The notes under the pieces are model-generated. The model was not told the DNA's origin. It ran no database searches and worked only from the letters and a program-made list of their open reading frames with translations. Made by a program: the position numbers and the translations under genes. Shown here piece by piece: positions 785 through 58,961 of a stretch of 64,000 nt of DNA. The stretch is from Tribonema minus (Eukaryota; Sar; Xanthophyceae; Tribonematales; Tribonemataceae), in NCBI GenBank assembly GCA_017506865.1, contig JAFCMP010000035.1, positions 248,001 to 312,000 on the forward strand, read 5' to 3'. Each line of letters opens with the position of its first letter. The stretch's first letter is position 1.

Positions 785-3700
785 CAGCAGGCGCTTGGTG
801 GCCATGATGCTGCTGGGGACGGTGATCAGCTCGCCCTCGCGCACGTGGTTCTGCAGGCTGAGGCGCATGCGGTCCATCACGCGTGCCTCGTACGTGAAGT
901 CAAACTCGTGCTTGATCTGGCGGCTCAGCTCTCGCAAGCTGAGGGTGAAGGGGGGGGGGGGGGGGGGAGGCTGAGGTTAACAGGGCGCGGTCAGTGCCAG
1001 CATCCTGGGCACAGCGAGCCCCAAGTGTCGTAGACAGAAAGAAAAGACCACATGGAAGGGGCGTGCGTTTTCACATCTGCGTCACCAGGGTCCGTTCATT
1101 CAATGCTGCAGAGCCGCGTTTGCATCATATGGCGCCGCACACACGATGCGCGCGCCATCACACGGCAGTTCACCAAGCCCGACCAGACCAGCAAGCAAAC
1201 AGGACCAGAGGAGCGCGCACGGGGGAGAATACGCGCACCTGCTCAGCACGTCGAAGTTTAACTCGAACTTCTGCAGGAAGGACGCCAGGACGGACAGGTT
1301 GGTGAGGTCGGACATCATGACGCGCTCCGCGCCCGGGTACTGCACCTTGACGGCAACTGGCTCGTCGCTGCCAATGAGCACGCCCTTGTGGACCTGTAAG
1401 CATGCGCGCACGCGCGAGGCAACAGCTTCGATGTCAGCGGCTCAGCTGTCTCACATGGTGGATGTTTTTTCCTCATGAGCGCATGTGAGCACAGCTGCCA
1501 ATGAGCACGCGCTTGTAGCCCTGAGGGCGCGCGCACAAGCCAGACAACATCCATGTCAGCGGCTCAGCTCTCATACATGGTGCACGGCTTTTTCTCAAGC
1601 GCGCATGTGAGCGCAGCTGCCGATGAGCGCGCCCTTGTGGACTTGTGGACCGCACGCCGCGCGTGCAACGCAACGGCGACGTTGTCAGCGGCTGCGCTCT
1701 CTGTCTGACGAGTGAGGGAAGGTGCGGTGCGCTGCTTGCGGCGCTCGCGAGCGCGGCTGTTGTCCGCGAGAGCGCGCTCCTTCGCGCTGCACGCAATCGT
1801 GCCCCTCATGGAGTCGTAGGCGCGCGGCGGGACGGCCGCGGCGGATTCGGCTGCGCGTTCGCACCAACAGCGCGAAGGTAGGCACGAGCGAGCAAGCCTG
1901 AACATGCCTGTCCCACAGACACGTTGACATACACATTGCAGAGTTGAAGCGTGCTGCCGCCTGTCATCATGACCCCATCGCCATGCAGCGACTGGAACGC
2001 CGCAAGCAGCCATGGCTCATTTGATCGGTTTGCAATCTCAACGGCGCGAACACCAGCTACAACAACCGTGGGAGCTTGGCATTCCAGTATTTCTGGTGCC
2101 GCTGCCTCGAGAGCGGGAGCGTGCAACCGCCTTCAATCACTCCAGTTGCGCTCGTCTGTAGACTTTGGCTGATGTAGGCATCGCTGACTCCTCCGACAGC
2201 ACGCTGCACTGCAGAACCGGTGCGGATGGGGCAGGTGCGCAGCGAGCGGCAGGCAGCAGCGCGCTTTGCGCCGCCGCGTGCAGTAACACGTCACAGCATG
2301 CCTCACGCGCGCGCGCACGCGCACCTGGCTGACGGACGCGCTGCCCAGCGCGCTTCTACGCAAACTTCAACTAGGCATCGCTTGGCAGCCCACTCCTATA
2401 CGCGCATGCTACGCTCCACCCCCGGGCAAGCGTGGCCGCGCGGCCGTGTGCAGCAAGACATGACAACAGCCCCCACGCGTGCACGCGCACCTGGCTGATG
2501 GACGCGCTGCCGAGCGGCTCCTCGAGGTCGAGGTGCGTGAAGTGGCCCTCTATGGGGCCGTGCAGCTCGCCCTCGACCACCGCGCGCACGCGCTCCGGCG
2601 CCATCGGCGGCACCGCGTCGTGCAGGCGCCCCAGCTTCTCCAGGTAGATCTGCAAGGGGGGGAAGGGAGGGCGCAGATGCGTGGAACATCAGCTCGGAGT
2701 AGTCCCCGATGATGCCGGAGCGAAGTGAAACGGCAAACGCACAATTTAGATTGCGGCCGGCGGAAAGGCGCATGTTGCTGGAGGCCGCGCAGTCTGTTGC
2801 GGCCGCGTCAGCAGCGTCGGTGCATGCGTGCGCATGGCGCGTACGTTCGCAGCGCGGCAGCGGCCTCCGCGCCATCGTGACGCACGGCGGCAATGCGAGT
2901 GCGGCCGCAGAGTCGAATGCGCGCCGGGGGGGGTAAGATGGCGCACCCCCCCCGGTGGGGGGGCGCGCGCTGCGCGTGCCAGGTGAGGCAGCGCGCTCTG
3001 CAAGCAAAAGCGTCGCCCGGCAAGGCCAGCGGCGGCCAATGGCTAAATAACGCGCGCGTTCCGTACGCGGGGCGGGGGGGTCGCGTCGACTCCCCTGCGC
3101 TGCTGACTGTGCAAGCAACACCCGCGAACGCCGCGGCGCTGACGCAGCGGGGTGGGAAAATGGGGGGGAAGGGGGGGACGCTGGAGCACACCACTCACGG
3201 GGTGAGAAAATGGGGGTTAGGGGAAGGGGGGGGGGGGGGGAGGGGATACTGGAGCGTCACCAACTCACGGGCGGCATGAAGTCGCTGCGCGTCCCCAGGA
3301 ACTGGCCGCTCTTGAGGTAGAAGCCGCGCAGGTCCAGGCACAGGTCCAGGAGCCTGTCGCTGTTGAGCGCGTGCACCTCGTCCCACCTGCGGCAGCGGCG
3401 GCGGCGGAGGCAGCGGCAGCACGCGAGCAGAGCCTCAGCGCCCATCCTCGATCATGACCGCCGCGGCGCCGCCGCCGACGGGCGGCGCGCTCGACGCGCT
3501 GCAACAAGAACTTCAACATGTGACTTGCGTGCGTGCGACTTCCCCGCCCCCACAAGCGACGGTCCGCGCGCGCAGGGGCTCAAGCGCTGTTGAGTGCGTG
3601 CATCTGCTCCCTCCTGCGGCATCGCAGCGGCGGCGGCAGCAGTGGCACGCGAGCAGCGCAGCAGAGCCTCAGCGCCCATCCCTGATGACGGCGGCGGCGG

Positions 3701-11330: not shown

Positions 11331-11363
<33 letters not shown>

Positions 11364-14300
11364 CGCGCGCGCAGGCCCAGAAGACTCTGACGAGGACTTG
11401 TTGCAGTCGAGCTATATGTTGTACGGCCTCATACACGCGCGCTACATCATCACCACCAACGGGCTGGAGGTGAGGAGTGCCGCGGCTGGCCGCGAGAGCG
11501 CGCGCACGCAAGCCTTATCTGATTGGCAGACGTGCTGCCCCCGAGCTTGACATCATGCCACGCGGACGTGTTCGCTGCTGCGGTGTGCGCGGCGTGCGCG
11601 TAGGCTGCCTAGTGCATGCGCGCGTGCGGTCCGAGCCAGCGCGGCGCTTCCAGCGGCCGTCACATGCGCGCCGCGGCGGATTCATTGCAGTGCTTGCATG
11701 CCGCTGACGAGGAAGCTCGTCCGACAAGCTCAGTCTTGCCCACGCTCTCTCCCTTGGCAGCGCTCATTCTGCCCGCCGAACGCATGCCTTGCGCCGCCGC
11801 CGCCGGAGCCGCGCGTGCTGCGGCAGCCAATGTGCAGCTGCACTGCCGCGTCGTGCTGTAGTCCGCGCTCGCTGCACGTTCCTTCCTTAATGATGAACGT
11901 CTTAACCCGTTTTTGATGACAGCAAAGGACCCGCAGCGTGCGTCACGCGCACGCGCAGCCCTCCTCTGATCGCGCGCCGGTGTTCCTCCCCCCCCTCGCT
12001 GCTGCCGCGCGCCCCGCTCGCCTGCAGGCGATGCGCAAGAAGCACGCCATGCAGGACTTTGGCTGCTGCCCGCGGATGCTGTGCCGCGCGAGCGCCGTCG
12101 TGCCCATCGGCATGCGCGACGAGCCGAAGGTGAGTGGACGGGGCGGAGACGGCCCTGCGCGCGCGCGCAAACGGCAGACGCGCGCGATCGCATGCTCGAA
12201 TCACGGGACCACGACGCGGTGTTTGTAAATGTGGTCACCTGTCGCATGGCTGCACCGCTCACGAACCCTGCCGCTGGCTGTGTGCGCGCCTCTCTCGGTG
12301 GTTTTATGTTCTGCCGCCGTGCAGTGTTGTGTTGACGTGTGACTGTTTCGTGCTGCGTGCTCGTGAGCGTTTGAGTGCTGCGCGACGCACCCTAGTACGG
12401 GCGGGTCACGGCATCTGCCACAGTGCAGCAGTGCTCACGTGCCTCGGCGCGCCCGCACAGGTGTCCGCGTAGAGTTGCGCGCTCCACTCTTCGCCTGTAT
12501 GCCACCACTTGCCGCTGCCGCTGCTCACACCAAAGTTCCCCTCCGCTCCTGTCGCAAACTGCTGCCGCCGACGGCGCCACGCTCCCCTCTTCACCCACGT
12601 GCCCCCGCTCGCGCCAACTGTCCCCCCCCGCTCTGCCCCCCGCTGCTCGCTGCCGCCGCCGCCACCGTGCCTCTTTTCACGCCGATTCCCCCAGCTCCTC
12701 CCCCCCGCCACTCACTGCCGCCGCCGCCACTGTGCCCCTGTTCACGCCGATTCCCCCTTGCCCCCCCCCCCCCCCGCTCGCTGCCGCCGCCGCTGCCGCC
12801 GCTCTTCACCTGCTCCGCTCTTCAGCTGCAAGCCGCCGCGTGCCGCTGCTCACACCACATTTCCCTCCCCCCCTGTTGCGAACTGCCGCCGCCGCCGCAG
12901 CTCGAGGGCGTGAAGCTCTTCTGCCCGTCGTGCCAGGACGTGTACGCGCCGTGGGCGCCATCGTCGCCGCAGGCGCAGCTGGACGGCGCGTACTTCGGCA
13001 CGACGTTCGCGCACCTCTTCTGCATGACGTACGAGGTGCGGGCCAGCAAGGCCGTGGAGGGGGATGTGCGTGTGGGTTCTCGCTCTCTCGCGTGCGCGCG
13101 CCGCCTGTGCGCTGCCAACAGTGTCCACTTGTGCGTTCTGTTCATGGTGCGCTGCGTCTTGAGGCGCGGTCGCCCGTGCCGCGGCGCGTGAAGCATGATG
13201 GCTGACTTGAAGCGGTGCGCGGCGCCCGCACCGGGACGAGGGCCTTCCGTAGCACTGCGAGAGTGTGTGACCCCCCCGAGTGCAAATACATGCTGTTGAA
13301 CTCATTCACTTGCATTACAGCCCCTGCGATAGTCCAATGACATTTCCTGAAAGTGACTCATGTAGCAGTCACTGTCCAGCAGTTGTGCGACTTGTGAGCA
13401 GTCATTGTCTAGCAATTGTGACGCGCCAGTGCACGTCTACGCAGCGCGAGAGCTCACGCTCAGCGTGACGCAACCAGCACGTGTGCGGTGACCGGAATAT
13501 CAGTGCACCCATGACAGGCACATCTTGCACATGCGCTGACGCTGCGGCGTCCGCATCTTGCGCGTGGAGCACCCGCACTCAACGGCCGCGCCTGCGTTTT
13601 GCGGGTTGCAGAGCGTCAGCGCCGTTACACCTGCACGCGTCAACACGCCTCCGCCGCCGCTGCGCCCCTGGCAGAGGCGGTGTGCGTGCCGCTGGCCGAC
13701 GACCCCCCGCTCAGCAGTGCGAGCCTCAACGCTCAGCGGTGCATTGCTGAGCACAAGCGGGCCGCTGAGCAACGCTGACGCGCGCGCTCGTTCCTCCCGC
13801 ACCGCGTGCCTGCAGATCACGGCGCCGACCGCAAAGGAGCTGTACGTGCCGCGCATTTTTGGGTTCCGCATACACAGAGAAGGTGGGTTTGTCTGTATGG
13901 CCGCCTTGCATGTTATTACTTGTATATACACCTTATCCTGTTGTAACGAGAAGACAACGCATTTTTGGGTTCTGCATACACAGAGAAGTTGGGTGTCAGC
14001 TACTTCTTGAAGTACTGGCGCCTCCATGCTGTGCGACGCGCACGTCAGCCGTCGTATGCGTAAGCCGCGGTGACGATGCACGAGGCAGCCGTGCTTCGGC
14101 CCTCATATGTCGGAGTGTGCCCATGTGCGCCGACTATCAAGCGTGCTCCCGCAAGCATCCTTGATCTATGCGCATGTCCGTGGAGCGCTGACCCCTCCAA
14201 GCAATGACGGCTCCATGCCAAACTTGTCAGCGTCGAGCACTGACACCCGCCAGCGGCGGCGGCGGCGGCAGCACTTGTTCCACTACTTCTGTGCGCTGTA

Positions 14301-16983: not shown

Positions 16984-19900
16984 ATGGGCATCCGCTCAGT
17001 AGCGCTGGCTTTGAGCAGCGGCCTGATCATGCTTCGAGGTGGCACGTCTTTTCTCTCCCGAGGATTGTGCGCAAGGCAGCCCTGGCGTATAGCTGCTGTG
17101 AATCGTGGTGGTGGGGGAGGCGGCGTGCGCATGGGTGCGAGCCAGGCAAGTTCTGAGTCTCGTGTCATGCACTTGAAGTGGTCACTTTGTTACCTTGTTT
17201 TCCCAACTCGGCTGAGGGTTTTTGAAAGTGTCGGTAGCTAGCGTATATCATGCATAGATTGCATAGATGATGAATGCGTGCAGGCAGCCTCGTCAGCTGA
17301 TCAATGCGAGTCCCAGCGTGTGGTACATCTCAAAATCGCCAGCGCACTAGCGTGTCGCGCAATGTCACGTCTTGGATCTGCAGGCTCACATCTCCATGCC
17401 GGAGCTCCCTCCGCTTCCGAGCTTGACGGCACGTGGCCGATTTGAGGTCCCTGCGCACTTCCGTGCAGCCATTTGGCGGCCTCTGACTTCATCCGGCCAC
17501 TGCGCATGCCGCCGCCGTGTCCCCGCCGCAGGCGGCGCCACCCGCCGCCGCCGCGGCGCCGCCGGCGCACCCCGCCTACGACCTGGTCAGCCAGGACTTT
17601 GTGCAGGAGTACGGCGCGGCGACGGCGCTGTACAGGCACAGGAAGAGCGGCGCGGAGGTGCTGAGCGTGCAGATCGATGACGACAACAAGGTATGTAGGC
17701 ATCGTGTTCATGTAGGTACCGTGTGCCGCGTGCGAGACAGGAGTGGCGCGCCCCGCTGTAGTCGGTGCAGCCGCGCATGCGCGCATGTACATTCGGCGCC
17801 TGAACTCGAGGCGAGCACTGTGATGTGACAGCGCAGGAGCGTTACAGGCACGATTGCTGTTCGTGCAGTGCCTGCCCTGGCGCCGTCGGCAGCACTCGCA
17901 TCGTGTCAAGCGCCATGGCTGCAGTGTTGCTGACTCTGACACATTCATGCAGCATATACTCAAACATCTGTCAAATTTGCATGACCCTTCATCAGTCACC
18001 TTTATTGCGTAATCTCATCTCGCATTTGCTGCGTTGCTCAGCAGCTTGAGCTTCCGCCGACAGAGCGTAGTGGCACTTGCGATGATATGTGCTTCGGAGA
18101 GTTTATGTATGCTGCAATCCGCCCGCTGACTCCTTCTTATGTGTCTTAGCCTGGCGCAAAACTTTGTACGCGTGCAACAAAGAGCATAGTGTGCTGCCGG
18201 CCGGCATGGAGTTCATCATCGCAAAGTAGCACTGCTCAGCTTGGCACACGATGCGCGGTGCGCATCATGAGGATTCCTCGCTGCGTGACGGAGATGCGCT
18301 TGACGCGGCGTGCTGCTTGCCTCGCGGCGGTCAAACGTCCGCGGCCACGGCCGTGAACTTGCGCTGAAAGCATATCCCCAGCCTACTCTGTTCAAGTTCA
18401 AACTTGAAGTTCTGACTTCAAGCGTCCCGCGCCCCGCCGCTGCAAGCACAAAAGCGCAGGTCCTGACTCCAGGTTCTGACTTCAAGTTCTGACTTCTGAC
18501 TTCAAGTCCTGACGTCCCGCGTTCGCCGCCGCCGCAGGTGTTTGGCGTCACGTTCAGGACGCCGCCGGAGGACAGCAGCGGCGTGCCGCACATCCTTGAG
18601 CACTCCGTCCTGTGCGGCAGCCGCAAGTTTCCCACCAAGGAGCCCTTCGTCGAGCTCCTCAAGGCGAGTGCGCTCAAACTTCAATTGTGAAGTGCAGCGC
18701 GGAGGCTCAGCATATCTGCAGTGGGGGGGGGGGTCATGTTGTTAGTATGCTTGCATTGCCTACGATGCCCGGGAGTGCGTTGCGGTCGTGTGCATCCACT
18801 TTGTGGCGCGCAGAGCGCGCTAGTGCCGGCGGCTGCGGCATCACGCTCGTCGTGACGTTGAGCACCTGCAGTGCCGCACTGCGCGCGCGCAGTTCTACGC
18901 AGTAGTTGCCTGCTCAAAGCGAGCGGGGGACGCGCACGCGCAATCTGCAGCTTGCCGCACTTCATGTACCTGTTGCCGTCTTCACAGTTGAAGTTGCAGG
19001 GCGTGGAAACGGCGTCGAAGGCTGCGCGTGCATTTTGCGCTGGGCGTGGCATGGTTTTTGCCCCTGAGAATTTGCCTGTGACGCGCCCGCACTCGGCGTG
19101 CACACGTGGTCCGTCCAGGAACGCTCGCATGCCGTGTGCACCTCTTTTTCCATTGCGATGAGTGTGTGTGTGTGCGCGCGCGTGTGTGTGTGGGGGGGGG
19201 GGGGCAGACTGGGGTTCACGCATTCCGCTGCCCCGCGCACACCTGCTGCTGCGCCCTGTCCTCATCACCTTTATGGTTGTGCCCGCTCTTGCTTCTCGCT
19301 TCGTTTCTTCTTGAACCGCGCGCAGGGGTCGCTGCAGACGTTCCTCAACGCCTTCACGTACCCGGACCGCACGTGCTACCCCGTGGCCAGCCAGAACACC
19401 AAGGTGAGTGGCCCGCCGCGCGCGGCGGATCCCGAGCACTCGCGCGCGCGCAGCTGTGCTCTGTTCTCGGCCACGCCGCCTCGCTGCGCATCGTGCGCTC
19501 ATGAGCAGCGCGTACAGATGCTCGTGCGTCACAGTCGAAGTGGAGTTGATGAAGCGAGTTGGAGTGGAGTTGATGAAGCGAGACCTGCGGTCAGTCGGCA
19601 CAGCGTGACGCGCCGCCCCCTCAGATGAGCGCGCGCGCCTCTTGCGGCAGTTGAAGCGGAGTTGATGAAGGGAAGTGTATGGTCGACTTACACTGTGTGA
19701 CGCGCCGCCATCTCGAATGCACATGCCGGCGGGGTGGCGCCCACCCCAGTCTATGCCCGTGTTCCCCGGCATTGAGCACCACAGCGCCTGTGCGACAGCT
19801 GTAGTGGATTGCTGAAGTGGAGATCGCCGCTGTTGTGCGGCTATCAAGGACAAGACCCGCTGTCGTGGCGCGAGCAGGCGCCGGTCGCGGCAGCGCACGA

Positions 19901-22900
19901 TGTGGACGGCACGATGCTGCCGTATTGCAGTGCTCCTTTCGAGCGTGTTATCTCAAAGCTGCAGCCCTGAGTGCAGTTCACCTTCAGATCCCCCGCTTGC
20001 GGAGTTCGTTGACTTGGACCAATTCGCTTCACTTGTACATAGTCAGAAGTTGACACCTGCGCATGAGTGTCAGTCACAGCACCGCCTTCAGCGCGGTGTT
20101 CACCTTTCTGGTGTGGTCACAAGAGTGCTCGCGCTGCGCACGATGCAAACCCGTGCCCTGTTTACACACACGCGCCTGACACTGCGCTGCATTGCTAGCG
20201 CTCATCTGCGCTGCGACGCAGACTTGAGGTTCAATGTCGGCTCCAGTCGAGTCGCCCGATGTCTCACCCTCACTCCCAGCGCACACGCGCTCGCGTGCCC
20301 CCCCCTATCTTTTTTGCCCTCTGTGCGCTCTAATTGAAATTGAAGTTAGTGCATTTGCGCTCTTGTTGATGCGTGTGCAGGACATCTAGCGCCTCATCCA
20401 CGTGATAACACCTTGCTTCTCCTCGCCCACAACGGGCACGCCTTCCGCATCAGTTTGCCTCCAGGGGGGTATGTACCTCGGCCTACATCAACTTGAAGTT
20501 ACTGCATTTCCCTCCTGACGCAGGACTTCTACAACCTGATCCACGTGTACCTGGACGCCGTCCTCTTCCCTCGCGCCGCGTCCGACCCGCTGGTCATGCA
20601 ACAAGAGGTCAGCATGCGATCATCGACAAGTGAATTGACTCTGTGCGTTTTGCATTGCGGCAGACCTTGCGACGTGCACCGTAATTGAAGGCTGGATCAG
20701 GCGAGGGTTGAGTCTGGGTTCAAGGCACATGCATCCGCTCGTGCTCTGAGGCGCTGCCGGCAGCGGTTTGGTCAGAAGAGGATGTCGCTGTTGGGACGCG
20801 CGAGGGTGGATGGCAGCCGCCGCGGGGGCTCCGCTGCGCAGTGCACACTGCTTCGGGGCGCCTGCCTTGATGGCCACATGCTGTAGAGTCACCACTGGCA
20901 GCTTCAATTGCCGCGCACCTCGCTGCGCCAGCTGCCGGTTACGCATCTGTTGTGTACATGACTTCTCATCCGGGTCCTGAAAACCGGCGCACGCCCATCG
21001 CAGCGCGGTCCGCTGGCCACACCTGCGTGGAGCAGCAGCCATGACACCCTACAATATGCAGGCGGCGCATCTGGTACTCCTTCCCAATGGCATGCCTGCA
21101 CTGTTGACTCAACATTCACGGCGCCGCACCGGCCGCGTGCGCGCGTGCGCGCAGGGGTGGCACTACGAGCTGGAGGACCCCGCGCAGCCGCTCGCGTACA
21201 AGGGCGTCGTCTTCAACGAGATGAAGGGCGTGTACTCCAGCCCCGACGCGCTGCACGGACGGGCGCGCAAGCAGGTGCGTCACCGCCCGCGCCCACACGT
21301 GCACAGCGCTCATAATCGCTCAGCTTCAGCGGTCGCTGATGCACGACCATCGGCTCCGCGCAGTGCAAGCACGTGCGTCACCCACCGCCGCCGTCTGCAC
21401 GCGCGCGCATGCGCTCTCTTCAGCCATGCGGGCATCGCAGCGCTCATTAGCGCTCAGCGCCTTTGCACGAGCACTGGCATCGCGCAGCGCAAGCGCGTGC
21501 GCTGCACTGCTTGTGCCCATTTGCTTTCCGCCGCCACAGCTCGCAGCGCCGCTCGCAGTCGCGCTGCGTCAGCGCTCAGGTCCACGGGCTGCTGCTGCGC
21601 GAGCATTGGCGTCGCGCAGCGCTGAGCGCTGCTGCTGCTGAGTGCGCAGTCGTCGCGGTGCCTGCAATGTGCGGCAGCGGTGGCAGTACCCACGCGCGCT
21701 CGCACGCAGCGCCGCCAGGCGTACTGTTGGCGCCGCAGTGTCTGGTCTTTTGCAGCGAGCAACACACATGTGCCAACAGTATACTGGAAGCTCCGAAGTT
21801 GTTGAAGTATGATATGGTCATTTCTGCTGATGCCTACGCGGAGATACAACATCGCCGACAGTGCGTTGCCGTACTGCGTGCAGTTGCACCTGTTGCGCAC
21901 TTCGATTGCTAAAACTACATGGACGTGCGTGCACCTAGGTCTGGGGTCAGGATTGGGGTTAAGATCAGCGTCTGGATAGACGGCGCTGCCTGTTCAGCTT
22001 CCGGCATTGCACCGATCACATGTTGTGCGCAAGGCGAGTGCTATGGAGGCCGATGCTTGTGCATTTCCCCCGCGCCCCTCTCATGGCGACCCCCCGAACT
22101 CGCCGTGCGCGCGCGCATGCACCCCGCGTGGCAGGCCCTGTTCCCCGACAACACGTACGGCGTCGACTCCGGCGGCGACCCGCAGGACATCCCCAACCTC
22201 ACCTACGACTACTTCCAGGCATTCCACCGCCGCTTCTACCACCCCGCCAACAGCCGCGTCTACTTCTACGGCGACGACGCGGTGCCGGAGCGCCTCGAGC
22301 TGCTCGACGAGGTGAGCTGAGCGCTGTTGCTGGTCCCAACTTCAACCCTAACCGTAGCCCTAGCCAACGGCCGCATCTACTTCTACGGCGACGACGCGGT
22401 GCCCACGCGCCTCGAGCTGCTCAACTTGGTGAGCTGAGCGCTGCTGCTGGCCCCAACTTCAACCCTCACTGTAACCCGATTCGGGCGCGTCTACTTCTAC
22501 GGCGACGACGCGGCGCCCGCGCGCCTCGAGCTGCCCGACGATGTGCGCGCTCTCCGTCTCTTGCTGAGCACTGCTGTCTGTTGCATCCGTGCTCTCAACG
22601 CAGTGCGCGGTTGCCCGCCTGTCTGTCGTCGAGCGGTAATGCCGGTGAGCTGTGTGCCAACTTCGCTCGAACGACGCGGTGCCCGCGCGCCTTGAGCTGC
22701 TCGAAGAGGTGCGCGTTCTCCGTCTCTTGCTGAGCACTGCCACCGCTGAGCCGTGGGCTGCTTGTACGGCCCCGAGCGCCCAGCTGCTCGGCGCGGTGCG
22801 TGCCGCCGTTGCTTGTCGAGCGCTGCTGCTGCTGCTGCTGAGCTCCGCGTCACCTTTATGATGGCAGCACAGTAGGTAACTGCGTGTCTGGGGCTGCTCG

Positions 22901-34900: not shown

Positions 34901-37362
34901 TGACCTCTTGGTCTAGCTTTCACATGCAGCCAGCGTTTGAAGTGATTTCTGTTGGAGGAGCGCGTGCGACAACCGTTGGCGCAGCTTTGCTGACCATGGC
35001 ATCTGACGCAGCACAGTACGCGGAGCGCATGCAACCGATGCCTCACGTTTGCTGCCTTTCGGCTGCGCTGCAGGTCAACTACGTGGGCAAGGGTGGGCGC
35101 CTGTTTGAGCCCGGGGAGAAGGCGCCCGGCAGCTTCCAGGTGGTGTCAAGGTGCGTACGTGCACTCTGCATGCCCTTGAAACAGTACGTGGCACACGGTG
35201 CGTCCCTGCTGAGGTTCCGCCGCATCGTCCTGCTGCGGCGACCATGTCATCCTCTTGGGGCGCGCCAGTGCGGCTCACGCCCTCGACGCGGTGCTGCTGC
35301 CGCGCGCACACATGACCTCGCGCGTCCTCAGACGAGTCGCAAGAGGTGGCCGTGTCGCGCGCGCGCCGCAGAGCGTGCGCAGCCGTCTGAGCCGTGCCAT
35401 GCGCAGCTCCTCGCTCAGGCGCCGCCCATTGAGTGCATGCCGCCATTTCTGTCACGGTGGCTGCCAAACCGAGCGCAGCGTGCGCCCCTGCGTTCAAAGC
35501 GTTCAGAACACTCGATTGAGATGATCCCCTGCCTTGCTGCGACGCCCTTGCCTCCCGCACTTCCATGTACTTCTAGCGTGCCACGTATCGCATGTGCTGC
35601 GGCCGCCGGCGCTCCGCATATCAAACTGCACGCCGAGCGCGCTGCACATCAAACATGCGGTAGACACCAGCGCTCGCCACATATTCAATCCTGCCATACA
35701 GCAAACGCGCTAACGCCGCGCACTGCTGCAGGTACCTGCGCACCGGCTACCTGTGGGACAACGTGCGCGTGATGGGCGGCGCGTACGGGGGCTTCTGCAA
35801 CTTCAACCCCACCCTCGGCCTGTTCTCCTTCCTCTCGTACCGCGACCCGAACCTCGCCAAGACGCTGGACGTGTACGACGCGTGCGCAGACTACCTGGGC
35901 GACGTGCACCTTACGCAAGGTGCGCTTCTTGAAGTACATTGAGACACTTTCAGATCGTCACATGACACGCAGATTCTGTACTGTGAGCTTTGACATCAAT
36001 CGTGTGGGCTTTCTCGCGCCCTGAGCGAGAATCAATGACAAGCACGTGTTGCATGGTCTAACGTGCTGCTGCACAGGGGGCGTCGTGTGGGCACCCCTGG
36101 GCATCTTAACAGCAGTTGTAGCGGCACACGTTCGTTGTGACTGTCACGTGGGCTGTTCAAGCTCTGTAATGCTTTGTGCCCTCGTTTCAGGCTCGCGTGC
36201 CTGTGCTGCTGCGTAGTGCTAACTCGTGTGGCTATTTGTGACGCAGGCCTGGCACACTGCGCAGGCTGCAAGTTTACAAATGAGGTAGTGCACAGAACTG
36301 CAGATCGATCAAGCCTCAAATCGCTGCACCTGTGCACATCTGCCCGGCTTTTCTGAGAGGGCACAGTACCAGCACGCAGGTTGCAGCACAGGCATGGACA
36401 AATGGCGCCATGACGCCTCTTGACGCCTTGCCATTGCGCTCAACACCCTGTACTCGAGAGTGCTCTTTGCTGCGCTGCGGGACCAAAACTAAGCACATCT
36501 GCGACACAATGAACGACGGCCGTGCTGCGGCTGTGACGGCGCACCCTTGTTGCTTCATCTTGTGATCTGCCTCTGCGCAGAGGAGCTCGAGAGGGGCGTC
36601 ATCGGCACGATAGGCGCCATGGATGCGCCGCAGAGCGCTGACGCGCGGGGCTTCACGAGCTTCAAGCGGTATCTCGTGGGGGTGAGTCGACCGCTGTGCA
36701 TGCGTCCTGAGGACACTGCTGCTGAGAGTTTGTTTGCGGCCGCTGCTGAGCGCTGCTGTTGGGCGCCCTGGATCCGCAAGCTACGCTGCAAATGCTGGTC
36801 TCGACAGTCAGCTCTGTGTAGGACGTTGAAAACACGAAGAAGGGAAGTGCTTGAACTCCATGTCCCGGGGGCTCGTGTTCTCGCTTAGATCGCAACGCCA
36901 GGTGGGTGATCGGTCACGTTCATGTCTGCTGTCTGCACATGTGAGCGACTTGGTAGCGCGGCCTTGTCAAATGCCGCAGAATCGGCCCATCACATTTGAG
37001 AGCGCGCGGTCGGGCAGACCGCGCCACCACCGTGCCGCACATGATGCCCGCGGGAGCGCGCCGCGCGCCATCCGCCGCCGCAACGCCACTAGCAGCTCAG
37101 CTCAAGCAGCGCCAGCCCCCCCTCTCATTCTGCAACCGCCGCTCGCGCCGCGCCGCCGCACGTGCAGATCACGGACGAGCAGCGGCAGCGCGTCCGCGAC
37201 GAGGTCCTGGCCACCACCAAGGCGGACTTCGCGGCATTCGGCGACAGGCTGCGCGCCTTCAACGGCAGCGCGCGCGCCGCCGTCGTGGGGTCGCGCGCAG
37301 CGCTGGAGGCGGCCAACGAGGGCAGAGCCGGCGACGCCGCCTTCCACGTAGAGGACGTGTGA
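16984..37362 (+). CDS. PREP: Presequence protease PreP (M16C zinc metalloprotease), complete
   Basis: Twenty-five exons: 16984-17145, 17532-17690, 18538-18663, 19326-19403, 20524-20607, 21155-21274, 22135-22311, 23341-23400, 24382-24545, 25202-25328, 26340-26402, 26972-27078, 27809-27943, 28306-28405, 29538-29684, 30297-30375, 31048-31255, 32270-32389, 32827-33056, 33756-33818, 34559-34656, 35074-35150, 35732-35919, 36581-36681, 37168-37362. Every phase fits; about 1055 residues, as in plant PreP. PreP degrades cleaved targeting peptides and other short peptides in mitochondria and plastids inside a closed two-half chamber. The inverted zinc motif HILEH lies at about 125-129 and the third ligand Glu of NEMKGVYS at about 225, the family's 96-residue spacing. 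The C-half carries the conserved Arg and Tyr of RVMGGAYGG (about 907 and 913). Exon 1 is the least certain part: it encodes a hydrophobic leader and basic stretch ending VRMGASQ, and joins through a GC-AG intron. The donor after exon 3 (AAG|GCGAGT) is also GC; homology requires it. Confidence 0.94.
18395..18537 (+). repeat. Repeats before PreP exon 3 acceptor
   Basis: TTCTGACTTCAAG-type units occur four to five times, and CGTCCCGCG followed by a CGCCG-rich stretch occurs twice (about 18423-18446 and 18513-18537). The second ends in the functional CCGCAG acceptor, so this is a duplicated 3' splice-site region. Confidence 0.55.
20335..20580 (+). repeat. Degenerate copy of PreP exon 5 and its acceptor
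   Basis: The intron end and exon start at 20488-20580 recur at about 20335-20440. Shared pieces are TTGAAGTTA(G/C)TGCATTT, GCAGGAC and CTCATCCACGTG/CTGATCCACGTG. The upstream copy keeps the CAG acceptor but has an in-frame stop soon after, so it is a decayed exon edge. Confidence 0.75.
22252..22940 (+). repeat. Array of copies of PreP exon 7 3' end plus donor
   Basis: The functional end (22252-22330: TCTACTTCTACGGCGACGAC, then GCGGTGCC and CTCGAGCTGCTCGACGAG|GTGAGC) is followed by clear copies at about 22371-22440, 22488-22560 and 22672-22745. Weaker remnants lie near 22785 and 22890. The first copy also repeats the intron start (GTGAGCTGAGCGCTG and CCCAACTTCAACCCT). Copies three and four share GTGCGCG followed by CTCCGTCTCTTGCTGAGCAC. 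Confidence 0.92.
24090..24400 (+). repeat. Copies of acceptor and start of PreP exon 9
   Basis: Two units of about 95 bases (about 24208-24305 and 24308-24400) share TGCGCTGCATCGCTGCGACA and an AG followed by AAGAAG. The second leads into the functional CTGCAG|AAGAAGCGC. A shorter third relative at about 24098-24140 has CCCCTGCAG before an exon-like AGGCAGCGC. Confidence 0.75.
25286..25900 (+). repeat. Array of five copies of PreP exon 10 3' end plus donor
   Basis: GGCATCGGCCTCAAGGGCGT followed by CGCGCCGGAGAAG|GTGCGC is functional at about 25297-25334. It recurs near 25400, 25592, 25729 and 25836. Copies one to three also repeat the intron start (AGTCACTTCAAGTGCT and AACTTCAAGT). Several copies keep an intact GT donor, for example GAGCAG|GTATGT near 25757. 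Confidence 0.92.
28335..28560 (+). repeat. In-frame tandem copy of the end of PreP exon 14
   Basis: About 70 bases of exon 14 (28336-28405) recur nearly unchanged at 28474-28543, followed by GTAACT instead of GTGAAT and by similar intron text (ATTTTAAT). An AG after a pyrimidine-rich stretch (TTCTTTCGTCTGCTACGAG) could open the copy at 28481. It would then be 63 bases, in phase, with a proper donor, adding 21 residues. Confidence 0.88.
28769..29600 (+). repeat. Array of six copies of acceptor plus start of PreP exon 15
   Basis: The functional edge at 29531-29580 (GCAG|GACATTGCGGACGTGATC, then GCTGCCACCAAGTCC) is preceded by copies near 28772, 28888, 29022, 29133, 29247 and 29379, spaced about 110-150 bases. 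Most keep the CAG acceptor, and most continue past the edge with ATACAT- or CACATTTC-rich intron text. Confidence 0.92.
29447..29490 (-). repeat. Dispersed repeat, short copy in PreP intron
   Basis: CTTGTCACCTAAAGCTCTAC followed by AATCGTTTGATT matches the reverse complement of 10390-10430 and the plus strand of 42855-42890. It is a fragment of the same family. Confidence 0.5.
31240..31570 (+). repeat. Array of copies of PreP exon 17 3' end plus donor
   Basis: The functional end TACCTATTTCTGAG|GTCAGC with following CCCTATTAAGGCCCCGC is repeated near 31303, 31372, 31472 and 31534. Each has (C)CTGA(G/T)GTCAG, CCC-like text and AGCCCCGC. The copies lie in the downstream intron with spacing about 65-100 bases. 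Confidence 0.85.
33012..33330 (+). repeat. Array of copies of PreP exon 19 3' end plus donor
   Basis: The functional end (ATCTTCAAGCGGGACAACCT to AACCTCACAG|GTGACG, 33020-33062) recurs at about 33068-33108, 33163-33208, 33220-33252 and 33274-33318. All four keep a GGTGACG-type donor. A fainter piece (GCCTCACAAGTG) lies at 33489-33500. Confidence 0.9.
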
Positions 37363-41400: not shown

Positions 41401-43724
41401 AGAATGGGGATTGACTCAGTACAGCACACTAGAAGAACAAGCTCGGCACAGTGAAGGAGTACACTGGATTTTCTGCGTCACCTTCATGTAGAACCCGGGC
41501 AGGTGCAGCGAGACGGCGATAAGCGCGAGGTTGATGACGAACGTCAGTGCGCGCCCCCTGAACAGGCGCCGCTCCAGCTGCGACGCCAGCGAGAACATCA
41601 TCACCAGCACGATGATCACCTGCAGCCTGCGGCAGCGGCAGCGCCGGACACAGCAGTGGCGGCGGCGGGGGGTCAGCGACGACACGAGCAGACTGCCGTA
41701 GGACTGAGTGCTGACATGTCAGCAAAAGTGCACGGCATCACGCGCTTCGGGATTGGCTGCAACAGCGGCGGACCAACGGTGAGCGTGTGCTCGGTCCCCT
41801 CTTGGTGGTATTCCTTGGCTACAGAGCTAGAGGCAATGTTGAATGGCCCCGCGGCGCAGCCAGCGGTTGGCGCACGCATGATTGCTGAGCGCTGCCACAG
41901 GGCAACAATCGTGCAGCAGTTGCGCCTGGCAATGCCGCCGCCGTGACTTCGACCGTGCGCAAACAACGTGTGCCTGCCAGTTGGGCTTCTCGAAGATGAG
42001 CGCGCCGATGGCGGACCCTCAGGAGCAATCAGCAAACACCCTGAAACCAGGCAGACGCAGACGATGCCGTGACTGCTGCCCCCCGCAAGCACAGGATGTG
42101 AACACACCAGCTGGGCTTCTGAAACGCGAGCGCGTTGTTCAGAGACCCTCAGCAGCGATCAGCAAAAAACAATGACAACAAGAAGACACGGTCACAACAC
42201 ACACACATAGCATGGGACGTGGGCGTACCAGTTGGGCTTCTCAAAGGTGAGCGCGCTGGTGACGGCGCGCCAGTACTCGCGGTCCTTCATCACGCTCCTC
42301 TGGTGGAAGTTCACCTTGGTCATGCGCAGGCCCCCTGCGCGGCAGGCAGCGCGCGCGGCACGAGCAGCAGCACGTCTCAGCGGCGCGCCGGTGCGTTCTA
42401 ATGGGCGCAGAACCTGGCAGTGGTGTTGACCAGATTCCATTCCATAGACCTATGTCGCGTCTGAGGGACTGGCTGATGAATATACATGTATTGTAGACCC
42501 AAAAATATCAAAAGAATGATTGAAGTACACCGTGCCGGGGATGCGTGATGTGCAGCGCCAGCAGCTGCTGCACGTCAGAGCCACACGCAGTGCTCCGCGC
42601 CCCCACGCGCGTTTCCGGGTGAGCGGAGGCTACGTGCTGTCAGCGCAAAGGCGGTGACGTATGCGGAACGGCAAGCCCGCTGTGCACGCCCAACACAATC
42701 ACACGCAGCCACTGCGTGTAAGATGAACAGCTTGCACACATGAGTCTTTTTGAACACTGTGGACGTGGTGGCACTGTTTGACTCGTGGCCAATGACTGCA
42801 GCAGCGGCAACCACGGTTTTTGGTGGAAGGCACTTGCGGCTAACCACTCTTGTCACCTAGGGCTCAATGATCTTTTGATTCGTTTCCATAAGATACCGAA
42901 TGCACCGCCTGGGTTGATACTATATTGGCCTACCTTACAGTGTCTAGTCTAGTACCCTGCATAATTTAACAGTATGCATTTGCAAATCACCTGCCATTGG
43001 AAGTCATATTCGAACAATGACAATCGGCGCTGCAGGTGTGCAAAATTCACATGCGCTCTCCTCGCAGTTCTGAGCATGATGAGTGAGGCGCCAGAAATGG
43101 GTGCCTACTAAAATAATACTAAAAGGAACCCCTCCCTTGTGAGTTGAAGTGTGACTTGCCGACTGGAAGAGCAGTGCGTGATCACTGCATGTGCACCCAG
43201 AAGAAGCGCCCGTGCAGCGAAGCACCTTCCTGGGCGTCGCCGGCATCGATGCCGTCGAAAACGCGACATGGGCGTAGTGGAGTACTAGCTTACCATCAGC
43301 AACACGAAGTTGAAGTTGTGCGCTGCGTGCCGTGTCAGCGGTCAGCTGCCGAGACTGCTACACAGCTGCGTGGACGCAGCTTGTATCATTGACGTGCGTG
43401 CCGCTGGACGCTCGTCACGGAGCGGCGACGGGTCGTGACGTGAGCGCAATCAGTGGCAGTGCTCCCAATGGACTAAAAGATGACACATGTGCTTGCTACT
43501 GCGGCTTCATCTACTGCTGCTGCTGCTGCTGCTGCTGGTGATCGATTGCCGTACACAAAGGCGTCAGTGGCTCTTTCATGGCGGCATTGCGGCAGCAGCC
43601 CCCCTCACAACGTCTTGCACTTACCCCAATGTTGGGATGTCGCCACCGTCATCACCAGTGAGCTGAGCATCCAAAAAGTGGTTCCCGGCGTCTCCCGCCA
43701 CTCCAGCAGCGAGCTTGGATCCAT
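38423..43724 (-). CDS. DER1/DERL-like: Derlin (Der1-like ER membrane protein), complete
   Basis: Six exons on the minus strand: 43724-43625, 42334-42229, 41626-41482, 40742-40679, 40085-39925, 38560-38423; phases fit and give 237 residues, a usual Derlin length. Derlins are rhomboid-fold pseudoproteases that help move misfolded proteins out of the ER for degradation; algae with complex plastids also use copies in plastid protein import. Family marks: a short N-terminus before TM1 (LLEWRETPGTTFWMLSSLV), the conserved WR motif in DREYWRAVTSAL (residues 55-56), LERRLFRGRALTFV after TM2, and the GxxxG of LVGVAAGVF (184-188) in the last membrane segment. No signal-transit leader is present, which favours the ordinary ER form. 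The hydrophilic tail lacks an obvious p97-binding SHP box and contains a telomere-type repeat. The donor of exon 5 is GC (AAG|GCGCGT); phase and homology support it. Confidence 0.85.
38457..38472 (-). repeat. Telomere-type TTAGGG tract inside Derlin coding exon
   Basis: TTAGGGTTAGGGTTAG on the plus strand lies within the last Derlin exon and is read in reverse as codons for Asn-Pro-Asn-Pro (about residues 222-227) in the cytosolic tail. Frame and stop are preserved. Confidence 0.85.
39177..39737 (-). CDS. Unidentified 186-codon ORF nested in Derlin intron 5
   Basis: An uninterrupted ORF on the same strand as Derlin, with non-repetitive, protein-like composition unlike the low-complexity shadow ORFs nearby. 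It shows internal repeats of about 40-60 residues with a shared core: YTNHMRALSELTLADDP, LARHMRETIELALVDQP and IAEHMREVIEMVI, each preceded by a Pro-Gly or Pro-Lys-Pro-Gly segment. I do not recognise the family. It could be a nested gene, an unspliced retained exon, or part of a degenerate mobile or gene fragment. No promoter or splice sites were assigned. Confidence 0.35.
   Translation of the reverse strand: MVGESEREHDPPRARFQRIAHRTPTTSSEKLRARRSESAWCTLQPCPTGQQMMADGPKLTPGEANSALVYTNHMRALSELTLADDPVHQTMVDCPQRTPGKVHPPADAVALARHMRETIELALVDQPKTWARATVPDSRELATSLAFEPGSPDWAAVERKIAERPKPGSDLLVIAEHMREVIEMVI
41975..42270 (-). repeat. Copies of Derlin exon 2 3' end plus donor
   Basis: On the plus strand the functional edge (CCAGTTGGGCTTCTCAAAGG at 42228-42247, then TGAGCGCGCT) recurs at about 42109-42135 (CCAGCTGGGCTTCTGAAACG) and 41980-42006 (CCAGTTGGGCTTCTCGAAGA). 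Both copies are followed by GACCCTCAG(C/G)AGC(G/A)ATCAGCA. Spacing is about 125-130 bases. The first copy keeps a GT after the junction; the other reads GC. Confidence 0.85.
42750..42895 (-). repeat. Dispersed repeat, copy 2 (Derlin intron 1, inverted)
   Basis: Reverse-complement match to 10388-10530 over about 120 bases, including TTGACTCGTGGCCAATGACT and AGGCACTTGCGGCTAACCAC. It lies in the intron between Derlin exons 1 and 2. Confidence 0.6.
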
Positions 43725-48400: not shown

Positions 48401-50393
48401 GACCCTCGCAGCGCTCACCTGCGCCGGAGGCACGACCGGCGGCGCCCTGCAGCCGGCCCATGGCGCTGGGAGCAACTTCAAGCTCGTCTTCGTCAACTTC
48501 AAACGCGCTGTCGCCGCCGTCGCTCATCGACTCGTCCAGGGGGCCGCGGACGTCCATGAGGGGGTTGATCGACACGCCCGACGGGGAGTCGGGGGCGGCG
48601 CGCCAATCCGCCTCCTGCACGGGCCAGCGACACGCGCGTGTGAAATAAGGGTCGTGGCTTGTAAAGTTCAAGTCTGTATGACAGCACCAGTGCGGCGATC
48701 ACGATTGGTCGGCATCACGGACGTCAGCGTGCAGGGTGTGCTGCTGACGCTGACGGTGTCGCGGGCTGCCGCTTCACGGCGGACGCAGGCGCCCCTGGGT
48801 CTTGCATACGTGTCAAGAGCCCGTTGAAGTCGCAGATCCTCACCCTTACCCTGACTCCGACGTGCACTGCTCCACGCAATATTTTGTTGAGGTTGATGAT
48901 GAGGTTGGCACAAAGCAACTTTAAGTTGCTCTGGTGTAACGACAACACACCCCGCAAGCTTCACACCGGGTTGGTGCCCTGTGCGGACCATGCAGAGGCA
49001 CACCCCCACTGTTCTGGCGCCCCACATGTCCTCCTACCGGAGTCAAGGGACTCGTGCAATGCCCCCCCCCCCCCCTCCGCCATGCTTTCACTGACAGAAG
49101 CAGAGCGCAGCATCTCCGCGACTCACATCCAGCGCGCCCACCACGGGCCCGCTGCCCCCCACCCCCCCCACCCCCTCGCCCCCGCCGCCGCCGCCGCTGC
49201 CGCCGGCGCTGGCGGGCCTGCTGCGGTGGCCGCTGGCGCTCGTCCGCGCGCTGCCGCCGCCGCTGCGCCTGCCACTGCTGTCAAGCGCCTTGGATGAGGG
49301 CGTCCGCATCCCCATCGACCTGCGTTGACGCAGCAGAAGTGGCGCATAGGCAATCAGCGGTCGACGTGCAAGAAGGCACCGGATGTGAGACACCGCGGCG
49401 GGCGCGTCACCGCGAGCGCGCGCTGCGGTCATCGCGCGTGCGAAGTGCGGCCGCGCACGAGCCGCCGCGCGCGTCGGCGAGACGAGCATGCGCTTGCTGT
49501 TGCCATGGCCTGGCGCCAGCAAGTCAGCCTACACATGAAGGCTGAGCCTTCAACGAAGTAGAGGCTGACAATTATATAGATAAAGTTGCACAGGCGCATT
49601 GAAGTTGCGCGCAGCCCCCCCCCCCCCCCCCCCCCCCCCCTCCCCCCCCCGCGTGCTCACGGTATCATGTCACCCCTGTTGCACCGCATCAAGCGTGCAG
49701 TCGGCGGGTCACCGGCCATCATCAACGAGTGCTTTGCGGACGCTCGTGCGCGTAATTGCACTTGAGACGAGCTCATACGCCAAGCGGGGGCACCGGCGCA
49801 CGGGCTTGGCATGGTGCACGCGGTTTGCAGTCCCCGCGCTCTGCGCAGCTCGGTGTTATCCCAGCAACACATACAGAACATACAGTAATGAGTGCTGACC
49901 CAGGAATAATCATGAGATCAGCACGAATGGGTATAGATAAAAGGCGGCCAGAGCAGCTACTATTACTGCTTGTACTGTCTGCGGGGAGTGGGCTCCTTGG
50001 AAAGCGTCTCGCGCACCACCACGAGCTCTAAGTCTACTTCAAGTTGATACTTCAGGTGCATCCTCGCACACCCAGCTCACCCGCGCAGCGACCTGAGCGC
50101 GCTCATGCTGCGGCCGCGGCTGAGCGCGCTGAACGGCGTCAGGCGGTCAAACTGCGACAGGTCCGCCGCCTCGCTGCCGTTGGTGGCGAACGACGGTCTG
50201 TCGGCCATCGCGGCCGCGGTCGCGTCCTCGGCGGTGGCGCCCTGCATGGCGGCCGCCGCCGCCGCCGCCGCCATCTCCATGGACCGCTGCGCGCAAGTGG
50301 CGGCAGCAGCAGCAGCAGCAGCGCGGTCAGCAGCAGCAGCAGCAGCGGTCAGCAGCAGCTGCAGCAGTGGGCAGCAGTAGCAGCAGCAGCAGT

Positions 50394-50425
<32 letters not shown>

Positions 50426-56700: not shown

Positions 56701-58961
56701 ACATCATCACCTATCGACTTAATCGCAATTACTTCAAAGTAGTGCGGTAACTACCTGTCACCAGCCGCAGGATGGAGGGATGCGACGCCGGCGCGTGGCA
56801 CAGCGCCGGCGCCTGCACCGTGCAGCTCGCGCAGCCGCCCCTGCCGCAGCGCACGCACGTCACCGACGGCGCCTGCGTTGGCGGCAGCGTCAGGCGGCGG
56901 CGCAACACAGGTGCGGGAAAGGGGAGTCAGCTCAGCGTTTCATAGCGAGCATGCGCAGCTGCCTCGTGCGAAGTGCTGCAGCGGGTGCGTCGCGCCGCAG
57001 CAATTGGTATGCATAGCAGCGATCACCAGTGCCAGATCTGGAGCTGCCGCATCGCTGGCCGATGCGGCGCGGCGCGGCGCGCGGACGCAGAGAGACGGCG
57101 CAGGCTGCGTGTGGCCATCCGCCGGTTTGGCCGTCGGCGCGCGCTCGTGTGCTCGAGCAGCTGCGGGCGACGCGCAACTGAAACATGGGCGGCGCAGCGT
57201 TGCGTCTTCGTGCAAGATGAGTCCCTGCGGCATCACGCATCAGCATGCATGCGCCTCCTGAGTCGACGCTCGTGCGCTTCTGAGCCACTGTCTGCGTCGC
57301 AAGCGCTGCGTGCCCCTGACGTACGCCGCTATGGCGACATACCCAGTCCTTAGCAATGCGTATGCGCGGCCATCCCGGCAGGCAATGAAGCGCGCTGACA
57401 CTGCGTTCGCGCGCCTTTACGCCCCATCCCGCGCCACGCCCTGTTTCGGGTTGTGTAGTGCAAACACGCGCGCCCCCGCCACCGCTGCGCAGCGCGAGTC
57501 CGCCCCTTCCCCCCTAACGGCGCACGCGCCGCCCACCGATGTAGCACAAGCTTCCGCCGTGCCACAGATGGCGGCACCGCCCGCTGCGGCATCGACGACT
57601 TGCGCACACACACCCGCCGGCGCACCGAGCCGTCGCCCCCGCGCCAGGCGCATGCGCATTACGCTGCACGCGCGGAGGCGTGCTGTCTCGCGCCGCCGCG
57701 AGCGCCTGCCTTCCCGCTCCACACGCACTGCCTACACACTGGACCGCGCCTATATGGCATAGTCAAAGAATCTTCATCATTGACGTCAAAGTTTATGAGT
57801 CATTGAGCTGCTTCACAGGCAGTGATGCGCAAGTCCGCAGACCGCTGCAGCAGCGCATGCGCGTAGCGGCGCAGAGCGCACCTGCTGCCCGCCGGCGCAC
57901 GCAGCGCACTTGCCGGCCGTGCGGCCGCGCTTGGCGCCGCGCCGCTGCGCCGCGGCGTCCGTGCTGGCGGAGCGCGCGCGCGGCGGCGGCGGCGTCTTGC
58001 GCACGGCGCCGGACACCGACCTGCAGCAGCGCGCGCGCATGCGTATATACATACCCCGAGATGACGCAAGAGCGCGGTGAGAGGGCAACGGGCCAAACGG
58101 CGCGAGCGGCGAGGGGCTGGAAAGCCATTCGCTGTGAGGGTTCCGCGTGCATGGCGAGAGTAGGGCCACAAGTGATCGAGGGGAACACGAGCGGCTAGTG
58201 AGCCGCCGCCGCCGCCGGCGCGTGGCGCGTCAGGGCAGGGGAGCGCGACGCGTCGCCCGAGGGGAGCGTAAACCGCTGTGACTGCTCCGCATGCAGACCA
58301 TGCGGCGGAGTCTGCATGTGACGCGCTGGCTCAACCGCACCCATACGCGCAGGCAGTGCATGCGACATCCACCGCGCCCCCCGCGCCTCGCGGCCACCGC
58401 GCCGGCGCCGGCGCCCGCAGCGCGCGCTCGCCGCGGCCGCCCGCATCGTGTCGACAGTTTCATCTGCGGCACTCTTCGCGGTCGTAGCGTCCGCTGACGC
58501 GCAGCGCGACAGACATCTCAGCGAGCGCGCGCAGCCGTCCGCCCGTAGGACCGCGCGTGCCGAGCGCGCTGCGCGCGGATTCGCCCGCACCATCGCTCAG
58601 CATGACCGCTGCGCCGCAGCTCCGCACCGCCCTGTTGCTGCGCGGCACGCATCAGGCACGCGCACCGCGCCGCCTGATTGCTCTGCGACGTGCATCACGA
58701 CAGCGCTCATCGTCGCATGCCGCGCGGCAGTGGTGGCGCCGGGTGCCACGCTGCGCACTGGCACGCATCGCGACAGCGCTGATTGCGCCGCTGCGTGCCT
58801 GCGCCAAGCCGCCGCGCGCTGCGCACCTTCTGTTCCTGTCGTCGTTCTCCGCGTCGGACGCGCCCACCATGGAGTCCACGCCGTTAGCCACGCGCGCGAG
58901 CGTGTGCTGCGCCGCCGCGCGTAGGCCCTCCGGCGACAGGTACGACGCCAGCCCGCTGAAT
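53723..58961 (-). CDS. Unidentified Cys-rich protein, 5'-partial
   Basis: Seven exons on the minus strand: 58961-58827, 58020-57882, 56872-56755, 55718-55669, 54948-54853, 54115-54004, 53859-53723 (stop TAA); phases agree at every junction (about 262 residues). The first exon seen must be preceded by another ending in phase 2; I could not find it. The protein has an N-terminal helix-like part (LRAAAQHTLARVANGVDSM), a basic linker (RRGAKRGRTAG), then paired cysteines suggesting zinc binding: CAAC, CVRCGRGGCASC, CQHC and ICACG. The C-terminal 80 residues are hydrophobic-polar and globular-looking (LQYNLNGLGLSPARAAQA, GLCWLATPSTAEIDALM, KPMADAPWYDCSQAFMYFSM). I do not recognise the family. It could share a transcript with the Kre9-like exon 3.2 kb upstream on the same strand, but the visible phases (1 and 2) require at least one exon in between. 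Confidence 0.6.
54753..54776. repeat. Telomere-type CCCTAA tract in intron
   Basis: CCCTAACCCTCACCCTAACC followed by CTAA: four units with one variant, in the intron between the 54853 and 54115 exon edges of the Cys-rich gene. Confidence 0.85.
56072..56086. repeat. Telomere-type TTAGGG tract in intron
   Basis: TAGGGTTAGGGTTAG lies in the intron between the 56755 and 55718 exon edges. The tract with its following CCTTGG matches the Derlin exon tract (TTAGGGTTAGCCTTGG at both sites). CTAACCCTAG fragments also occur near 55637 and 56224. Confidence 0.85.
56648..56816 (-). repeat. Duplicated 3' edge and donor of the Cys-rich gene's third exon
   Basis: The functional exon end on the plus strand (56751-56810: CTACCTGTCACCAGCCGCAG, GATGGAGGGATGCGACGCCG, GCGCGTGGCACA) recurs at about 56653-56706, 100 bases further into the downstream intron, as GTACCTGTCGCCAGCCGCAG, AATGGAGGGGTGGGACGCCG, GCGCGTGGCACA. 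The donor dinucleotide is kept. Confidence 0.88.

Follow-up and report, generated by a model that had tools for sequence, protein, structure and literature searches.

Tandem copies of exon-intron junctions in introns of the alga Tribonema minus, a probable distant case of exon stuttering

The closest described counterpart of the feature reported here is "exon stuttering" (or sequence stuttering), described in February 2026 on the dot chromosomes of the chicken (Hron et al. 2026, PMC12954441). In the chicken, a lateral part of an exon is copied together with its donor or acceptor into the adjacent intron, as imperfect direct tandem repeats. The exon part measures 20-187 bp (median 36), more than 90% of the sources are no more than 1 base away from that exon's border, and 190 of the 236 affected introns are found on dot chromosomes, with up to 44 copies per expansion (median 4). 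The same text demonstrates intron length polymorphism, proposes an association with GC-rich genes, and mentions GC-rich genes of the gerbil as data not shown. Here, we analyse copies of this kind in Tribonema minus (Xanthophyceae), starting from a stretch of 64,000 nucleotides of contig JAFCMP010000035.1 (the window). A previous inspection of its letters (the sequence-only reading) had proposed that introns of five genes (ABC1K, CK2-beta, PreP, Derlin, and a Cys-rich gene) hold extra copies of exon edges with their splice sites, and had known of no named description of the phenomenon, although the name of exon stuttering applies to it.

The work of Gao and Lynch (PNAS, 2009) on internal gene duplication is reported to deal with intron gain and changed gene structure. 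Internal duplication likewise involves intronic and exonic segments within genes, whereas in T. minus the gene structure is unchanged and the copies gather at junctions. Minisatellites and other intronic tandem repeats share the head-to-tail arrangement, but the copies of T. minus are few, strongly diverged, and anchored on exon edges. With regard to intron gain by tandem duplication (ATP2A1 and the potato RdRp), the potato duplication spans the 3' end of an intron and the 5' part of an exon; there a new intron is spliced (PMC4974935), whereas none was seen to be made in T. minus.

The copies of both organisms span the exon border, include the splice site, are imperfect, and form strictly local tandems, and purely intronic copies occur in both. 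The exon part in T. minus (25-105 nt, median 51.5, over 32 junctions) covers a narrower range with a larger median. The alga differs in that the copies, one to six per junction, are present on seven of eleven sampled contigs, as opposed to the clustering on dot chromosomes and the much longer expansions of the bird. It also adds transcript evidence, the term RNA-seq being absent from the main text of PMC12954441. No earlier report of exon stuttering beyond vertebrates was found in searches of open-licence papers, outside which most subscription journals lie. T. minus is a phylogenetically distant new occurrence of a phenomenon named in 2026, and not a new kind of phenomenon.

The gene for the presequence peptidase PreP shows how these copies are arranged. 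P0001, its NCBI model in T. minus, is 95% identical across 100% of the PreP query, and the gene is resolved into 24 exons and 23 introns, with a single GT/GC-AG solution for each junction (one segment of P0001 was swapped for the homologous exon). The gene and the exons concerned are listed below, with positions of the window.

17529..37359, plus strand: PreP (M16C presequence peptidase) gene, 24 exons, matched by P0001 of Tribonema minus; five affected introns, one of them with a short exon part.
22135..22311, plus strand: exon 6; 3' edge and donor copied at 22370-22428, 22486-22542, and 22671-22708.
25202..25328, plus strand: exon 9; 3' edge and donor copied at 25392-25434, 25589-25623, 25720-25760, and 25838-25864, head to tail with a period of 106.
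28306..28405, plus strand: exon 13; 3' edge and donor in a single copy at 28484-28543 (60-nt query), period 138, 1.9 copies.
29538..29684, plus strand: exon 14; acceptor and 5' edge in six upstream copies at 28773-28810 and 28879-28919 (copied AG lost in both), 29024-29064, 29134-29165, 29249-29296, and 29380-29420.
31048..31255, plus strand: exon 16; the next intron (31256-32269) holds an array whose units include just 5-16 nt of exon.
32827..33056, plus strand: exon 18; 3' edge and donor copied at 33065-33102, 33149-33199, and 33268-33311.

Strong copies thus occur at 5 of the 46 PreP exon edges (the 3' edges of exons 6, 9, 13, and 18 and the 5' edge of exon 14), and with the full query the copy of exon 13 extends over 76 nt of exon at 96% identity. 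The sequence-only reading held that 3' edges with their donor are copied only into the downstream intron, and acceptors with 5' edges only into the upstream one; all five edges follow this prediction. At equal score, copies were found in the wrong adjacent intron for 0 of the 46 edges, and the comparison of edges with other introns gave 0 of 2,024 pairs (0/1012 on the same strand and 0/1012 on the reverse strand). In this gene, the donor of intron 2 is of the GC type (GCGAGT, window 18664). The P0001 model is distorted at 26403-27808, where part of an intron is retained and the exon 26972-27078 is omitted.

The window belongs to a contig of 1,537,782 bases in an assembly of 158 Mb and 554 contigs. 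It was studied together with ten regions of 20 kb (C1 to C10) on other contigs, taken at fixed coordinates and chosen blind to repeats, which makes 264 kb in total. ABC1K, CK2-beta, PreP (an M16 peptidase), and Derlin were identified through Pfam or protein search. Exons outside PreP, P450, and ABC1K are predictions of a small purpose-written gene-finding hidden Markov model, trained on PreP at first and afterwards on what it had itself predicted, which recovered 22 of the 24 PreP exons exactly in the final round. Before the intron-profile step, 69 predicted exons shorter than 45 nt and six copy-like exons were taken out; one of these six was the true PreP exon 13, which was put back afterwards. 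Of the 406 edges, 111 do not enter the edge counts, being gene ends or having low complexity or short flanks, and PreP exon 6, a low-complexity query, is among those absent.

Across the window and the ten regions, a copy lies within 1 kb downstream for 24 of 146 exon 3' edges, compared with 2 upstream, and upstream for 15 of 149 exon 5' edges, compared with 4 downstream. Edge copies at other loci were absent in all 1180 tests (0/584 for 3' edges and 0/596 for 5' edges), and reverse-strand copies amounted to 0 (3') and 1 (5') over the 264 kb. These edge counts include copies that the gene finder labelled as exons; such miscalled exons seem to lie behind the 6 wrong-side cases and behind as many as 7 of the 39 right-side ones. 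Once they are removed, 66 copies are left at 32 of 320 junctions and in 25 of 160 introns, with one to six copies per junction: 7 of 56 introns in the window, under this strict filter, and 18 of 104 in the other regions. In the window alone, with a copy threshold of a score of at least 34, nine introns hold copies of exon edge and splice site (one of them borderline, at 34), and a tenth (31256-32269) holds the copies with the short exon part. Several statements of the sequence-only reading are borne out by these data, namely the presence of at least one affected intron in each of the five named genes, the rule of sides, the range of one to six copies, and the occurrence on both strands and in unrelated genes. 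Its figure of at least 14 introns was too high, and its description of introns as generally filled with copies does not agree with a detectable copy in just 25 of 160.

The families with copies in the sampled stretches include ABC1K, CK2-beta, DER1, and M16 peptidase in the window, and isocitrate/isopropylmalate dehydrogenase (C4), 2-oxoacid dehydrogenase acyltransferase (C10), and cytochrome P450 (C5) beyond it, together with a stretch of C3 encoding an ammonium transporter.

Every copy checked is skipped by assembled transcripts: 15 in two genes (one of these genes in the window) and 4 in a PreP paralogue. The comparison used TRINITY-named, transcript-derived proteins from EukProt. For ABC1K, the protein P0248 joins window position 2491 directly to 1393, which leaves one copied donor and two copied acceptor edges unused. 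For the P450 gene of C5, a total of 12 copies, spread over five junctions (8371, 8518, 10427, 11500, and 15551), are bypassed by P0143 and P0175 taken together; at these junctions six intact copies reach the site and five of these six score at least as high as the site in use. In the PreP paralogue (PreP2), the NCBI model P0003 carries repeats of exon edges as four insertions (16, 12, 19, and 30 residues), none of which is present in the transcript-derived P0002, otherwise identical at 979 of 985 positions. Placed on the protein sequences by comparison with the exon boundaries of PreP1, the insertions would correspond to three 3' edges and one 5' edge, at junctions unlike those affected in PreP1. 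Transcripts at 11 junctions of three genes accordingly bear out the claim that only the copy joined to the exon body is in use. In these cases the pair of sites used is the one that gives the shortest exon and the longest intron, though inner pairs would shorten the intron. Exon definition predicts the use of the outermost pair and the skipping of inner copies. In the brown alga Ectocarpus, mammal-like exonic splice enhancers are said to exist (PMC12477816).

Two further features of the P450 transcripts lie away from the recognised copies. In P0175 the true donor at 7464 of C5 seems to be replaced by another one about 44 nt further downstream (at about 7508), perhaps a copied donor that is in use despite its decay, and P0143 joins the interiors of two exons (11419 and about 15780). 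The P450 of C5 matches the T. minus protein P0121 at 99%. Diverged pairs exist on different contigs for both PreP (P0001/P0003, the paralogue being 68% identical to the query) and P450 (P0121/P0125, 75%), as after an old genome doubling or hybridisation.

The other affected genes of the window are the following.

2491..2649, minus strand: ABC1K exon; the following intron, 1394-2490, holds a copy of its 3' edge and donor at 2325-2357, skipped in transcript P0248.
1239..1393, minus strand: next ABC1K exon; 5' edge copied upstream at 1494-1520 (AG present) and 1616-1642 (AG lost).
3585..3613, minus strand: borderline copy (score 34) of the 5' edge of the ABC1K exon 3269-3386.
13816..13882, plus strand: predicted exon in the CK2-beta gene region, its domain identified via neighbouring exons; 3' edge copied at 13958-13988, where TT replaces the GT of the donor.
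42229..42334, minus strand: Derlin-like (DER1) exon; 3' edge copied at 41978-42014 (donor GC) and weakly, with a score of 35, at 42108-42137.
56755..56840, minus strand: predicted exon of the gene labelled Cys-rich by the sequence-only reading; 3' edge and donor copied at 56656-56703.

One more hit (50358) was discarded, as it sits in a GCA triplet repeat. The window also holds a run of 32 C at 11331-11362 and a 36-nt run made up almost entirely of C at 49615-49650, and a search of it against Rfam gave nothing at the gathering score.

The anatomy of the copies agrees with the proposal that a segment spanning the junction is duplicated in tandem. Alignments run through exon edge, splice site, and intron in sequence, interrupted by indels, and reach the last exon base in 48 of 66 copies, while similarity on the intron side, beyond the splice site, exceeds the 95% level of control introns in 46 of 65. 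Tandem Repeats Finder detects several of the copies of the window as head-to-tail units (periods 106, 117, 122, and 138), and local repeats less than 2 kb apart in the window are, after filters, direct in 32 cases and inverted in none. Copied splice sites are spaced by a median of 135 bp (interquartile 111-158, 10-90% 99-183, n=63), a multiple of three in 14 of the 63 (a weak deficit). Broader distributions are found for purely intronic copies (median 189, 68 events) and for copies in other noncoding DNA (106, 32 events). The inner end is often common to the copies of one junction (e.g., 48, 48, 48, and 48 nt), which is expected if a first duplication seeds the later ones. Identity between copy and source is 74-100% (median 0.89 over 66 copies), and the indels differ among the copies. 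Local inverted copies of 40-mers, perhaps transposons, reach 2.0% in C1 and 1.0% in C10, and 0-0.3% in the other regions.

GC content was considered as a cause within T. minus and rejected, since affected junctions are not richer in GC: exon GC is 0.658 with copies and 0.674 without (P=0.41), and flanking intron GC is lower with copies (0.52 versus 0.59, P=5e-5), a comparison confined to a GC-rich genome in which exon GC is 0.61-0.72 across all regions. The link with GC-rich genes proposed for the chicken does not hold, therefore, within this genome, and with most sampled contigs affected and no tracking of GC between junctions, explanations based on dot chromosomes are insufficient on their own. 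Counts of quadruplex motifs per region gave 3.5 per 10 kb in C7, with copies at 6 of 18 junctions, and 6.0 in C10, with copies at 1 of 36.

The core of the observations is that the copies lie downstream of donors and upstream of acceptors, carry exon, splice site, and intron, and are skipped in the transcripts examined. According to these data, the alga most probably exhibits exon stuttering, in which segments straddling the junction, mostly of about 100-180 bp, have been duplicated head to tail, some of them repeatedly. If one breakpoint of a tandem duplication falls in the exon and the other in the intron, the event would be harmless because splice sites are paired across the exon: the spliceosome, by exon definition, would keep using the copy joined to the exon body, and the extra copy would become intron. 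Duplications with both ends inside the exon would instead be eliminated by selection. Each event would lengthen the intron, and some arrays may have been extended through rounds of misalignment between copies, with replication slippage, template-switch repair, or unequal recombination as candidate molecular causes. The growth of introns claimed by the sequence-only reading is consistent with their length, which has a median of 952 nt with copies (n=25) and 654 nt without (n=135; P=0.0014).

One alternative is that the copied sites are functional, as decoys or as alternative or recursive splice sites. The strength of many of them speaks for it, since 26 of the 41 copied sites that are intact equal or exceed the score of the true site, and so does the P450 isoform that seems to use a donor, perhaps a decayed copy, downstream of the true one. 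No examined transcript uses a recognised copy, however, and the copied dinucleotide (GT or AG) is intact in 40 of the 48 copies that reach the site, compared with about 0.82 predicted from the exon identity of 0.908, with indels in the exon part of 15 of these 48. There is no sign that copied sites are either retained or purged, and their decay without visible constraint makes a function very unlikely. That the arrays are new introns born by tandem genomic duplication, as had also been suggested, is still less probable. It is accepted that introns can be gained by tandem duplication (PMC4974935, PMC3443670), but the copies sit within existing introns, and the reciprocal similarity expected (the start of the downstream exon at the intron start, and the end of the upstream exon at the intron end) was found at a score of at least 30 in 0 of 320 tests, as in 0 of 320 controls, a signature that old births would escape. 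An assembly artefact or a dispersed mobile element (introner) is hardly credible. Tandem repeats are indeed prone to misassembly, but the divergence of the copies and their distinct indels argue against an artefact, and copies are present on seven of eleven contigs. The introner was rejected as a candidate on the lack of similar copies at unrelated loci. Tandem duplication of mutually exclusive exons was also discarded, as the copies carry one edge only and are skipped in the transcripts examined.

A more serious question is whether the junctions are special at all. Local tandem duplication might be uniform, and the junction copies might look special merely because selection freezes the exon copy and keeps old events recognisable. 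Intron-only local copies are common (8.7% of intron windows), and simulated detection at 16-20% divergence per lineage reaches 0.84-0.96 when one of the copies is frozen and 0.25-0.44 when both are free to drift. As a frozen exon copy makes old duplications easier to detect, the comparison was restricted to wholly intronic windows, in which neither copy is frozen. At a distance of 10-70 nt from a junction, 11.7% of these windows have a copy deeper in the intron, versus 4.0% for interiors, with a reverse-strand control of 0. The difference lies between 0.042 and 0.121 (bootstrap over the 11 regions) and recurs in all four GC classes; donors show it clearly, acceptors less so. DNA adjacent to junctions thus seems to be duplicated about three times as often as intron interiors, which leaves the purely passive explanation rather unlikely, and introns may therefore grow preferentially from their edges. 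It is conceivable, though doubtful, that junctions are hotspots of tandem duplication, arisen independently in birds and in a stramenopile alga by a process linked to transcription, splicing, or chromatin at exon edges, so that introns of such genomes would grow inwards from their ends and their old interiors would be decayed exon edges.

Several results weigh against the explanation by exon stuttering with growth from intron edges, or against its generality. The edge excess is found in 7 of the 11 regions, but C2 shows the opposite, C1, C6, and C9, which have no copies, show none, and for acceptors alone the interval touches zero (-0.004 to 0.115). C1, C6, C8, and C9 hold no copies at the exon-edge threshold, so that exon-edge copying does not occur everywhere, although some of these four of eleven regions may contain few real genes. 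The nearest copy resembles the exon more than the farthest one does in 12 of 17 arrays (P=0.09), and the distance of a copy is unrelated to its identity overall (Spearman -0.09, P=0.49), a weak fit to the expectation of younger copies nearer the exon, so that growth from the edge is not proven. The dependence on the gene finder of all exons outside PreP, P450, and ABC1K has to be added to this. Moreover, an intronic stretch of P0175 is slightly unlike the assembly, which indicates that the transcripts come from another allele, strain, or close relative.

Taken together, these junction copies are a real and widespread, mostly passive record of tandem duplication across exon-intron junctions, with an excess at exon edges. 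They represent a hazard for annotation, as the NCBI protein P0003 takes four copied edges for exons and gene models of T. minus are distorted. Their arrays of nearly identical donors or acceptors, some outscoring the site in use, constitute a natural experiment on the choice of splice sites, and the copies point to a mutational route by which introns grow.

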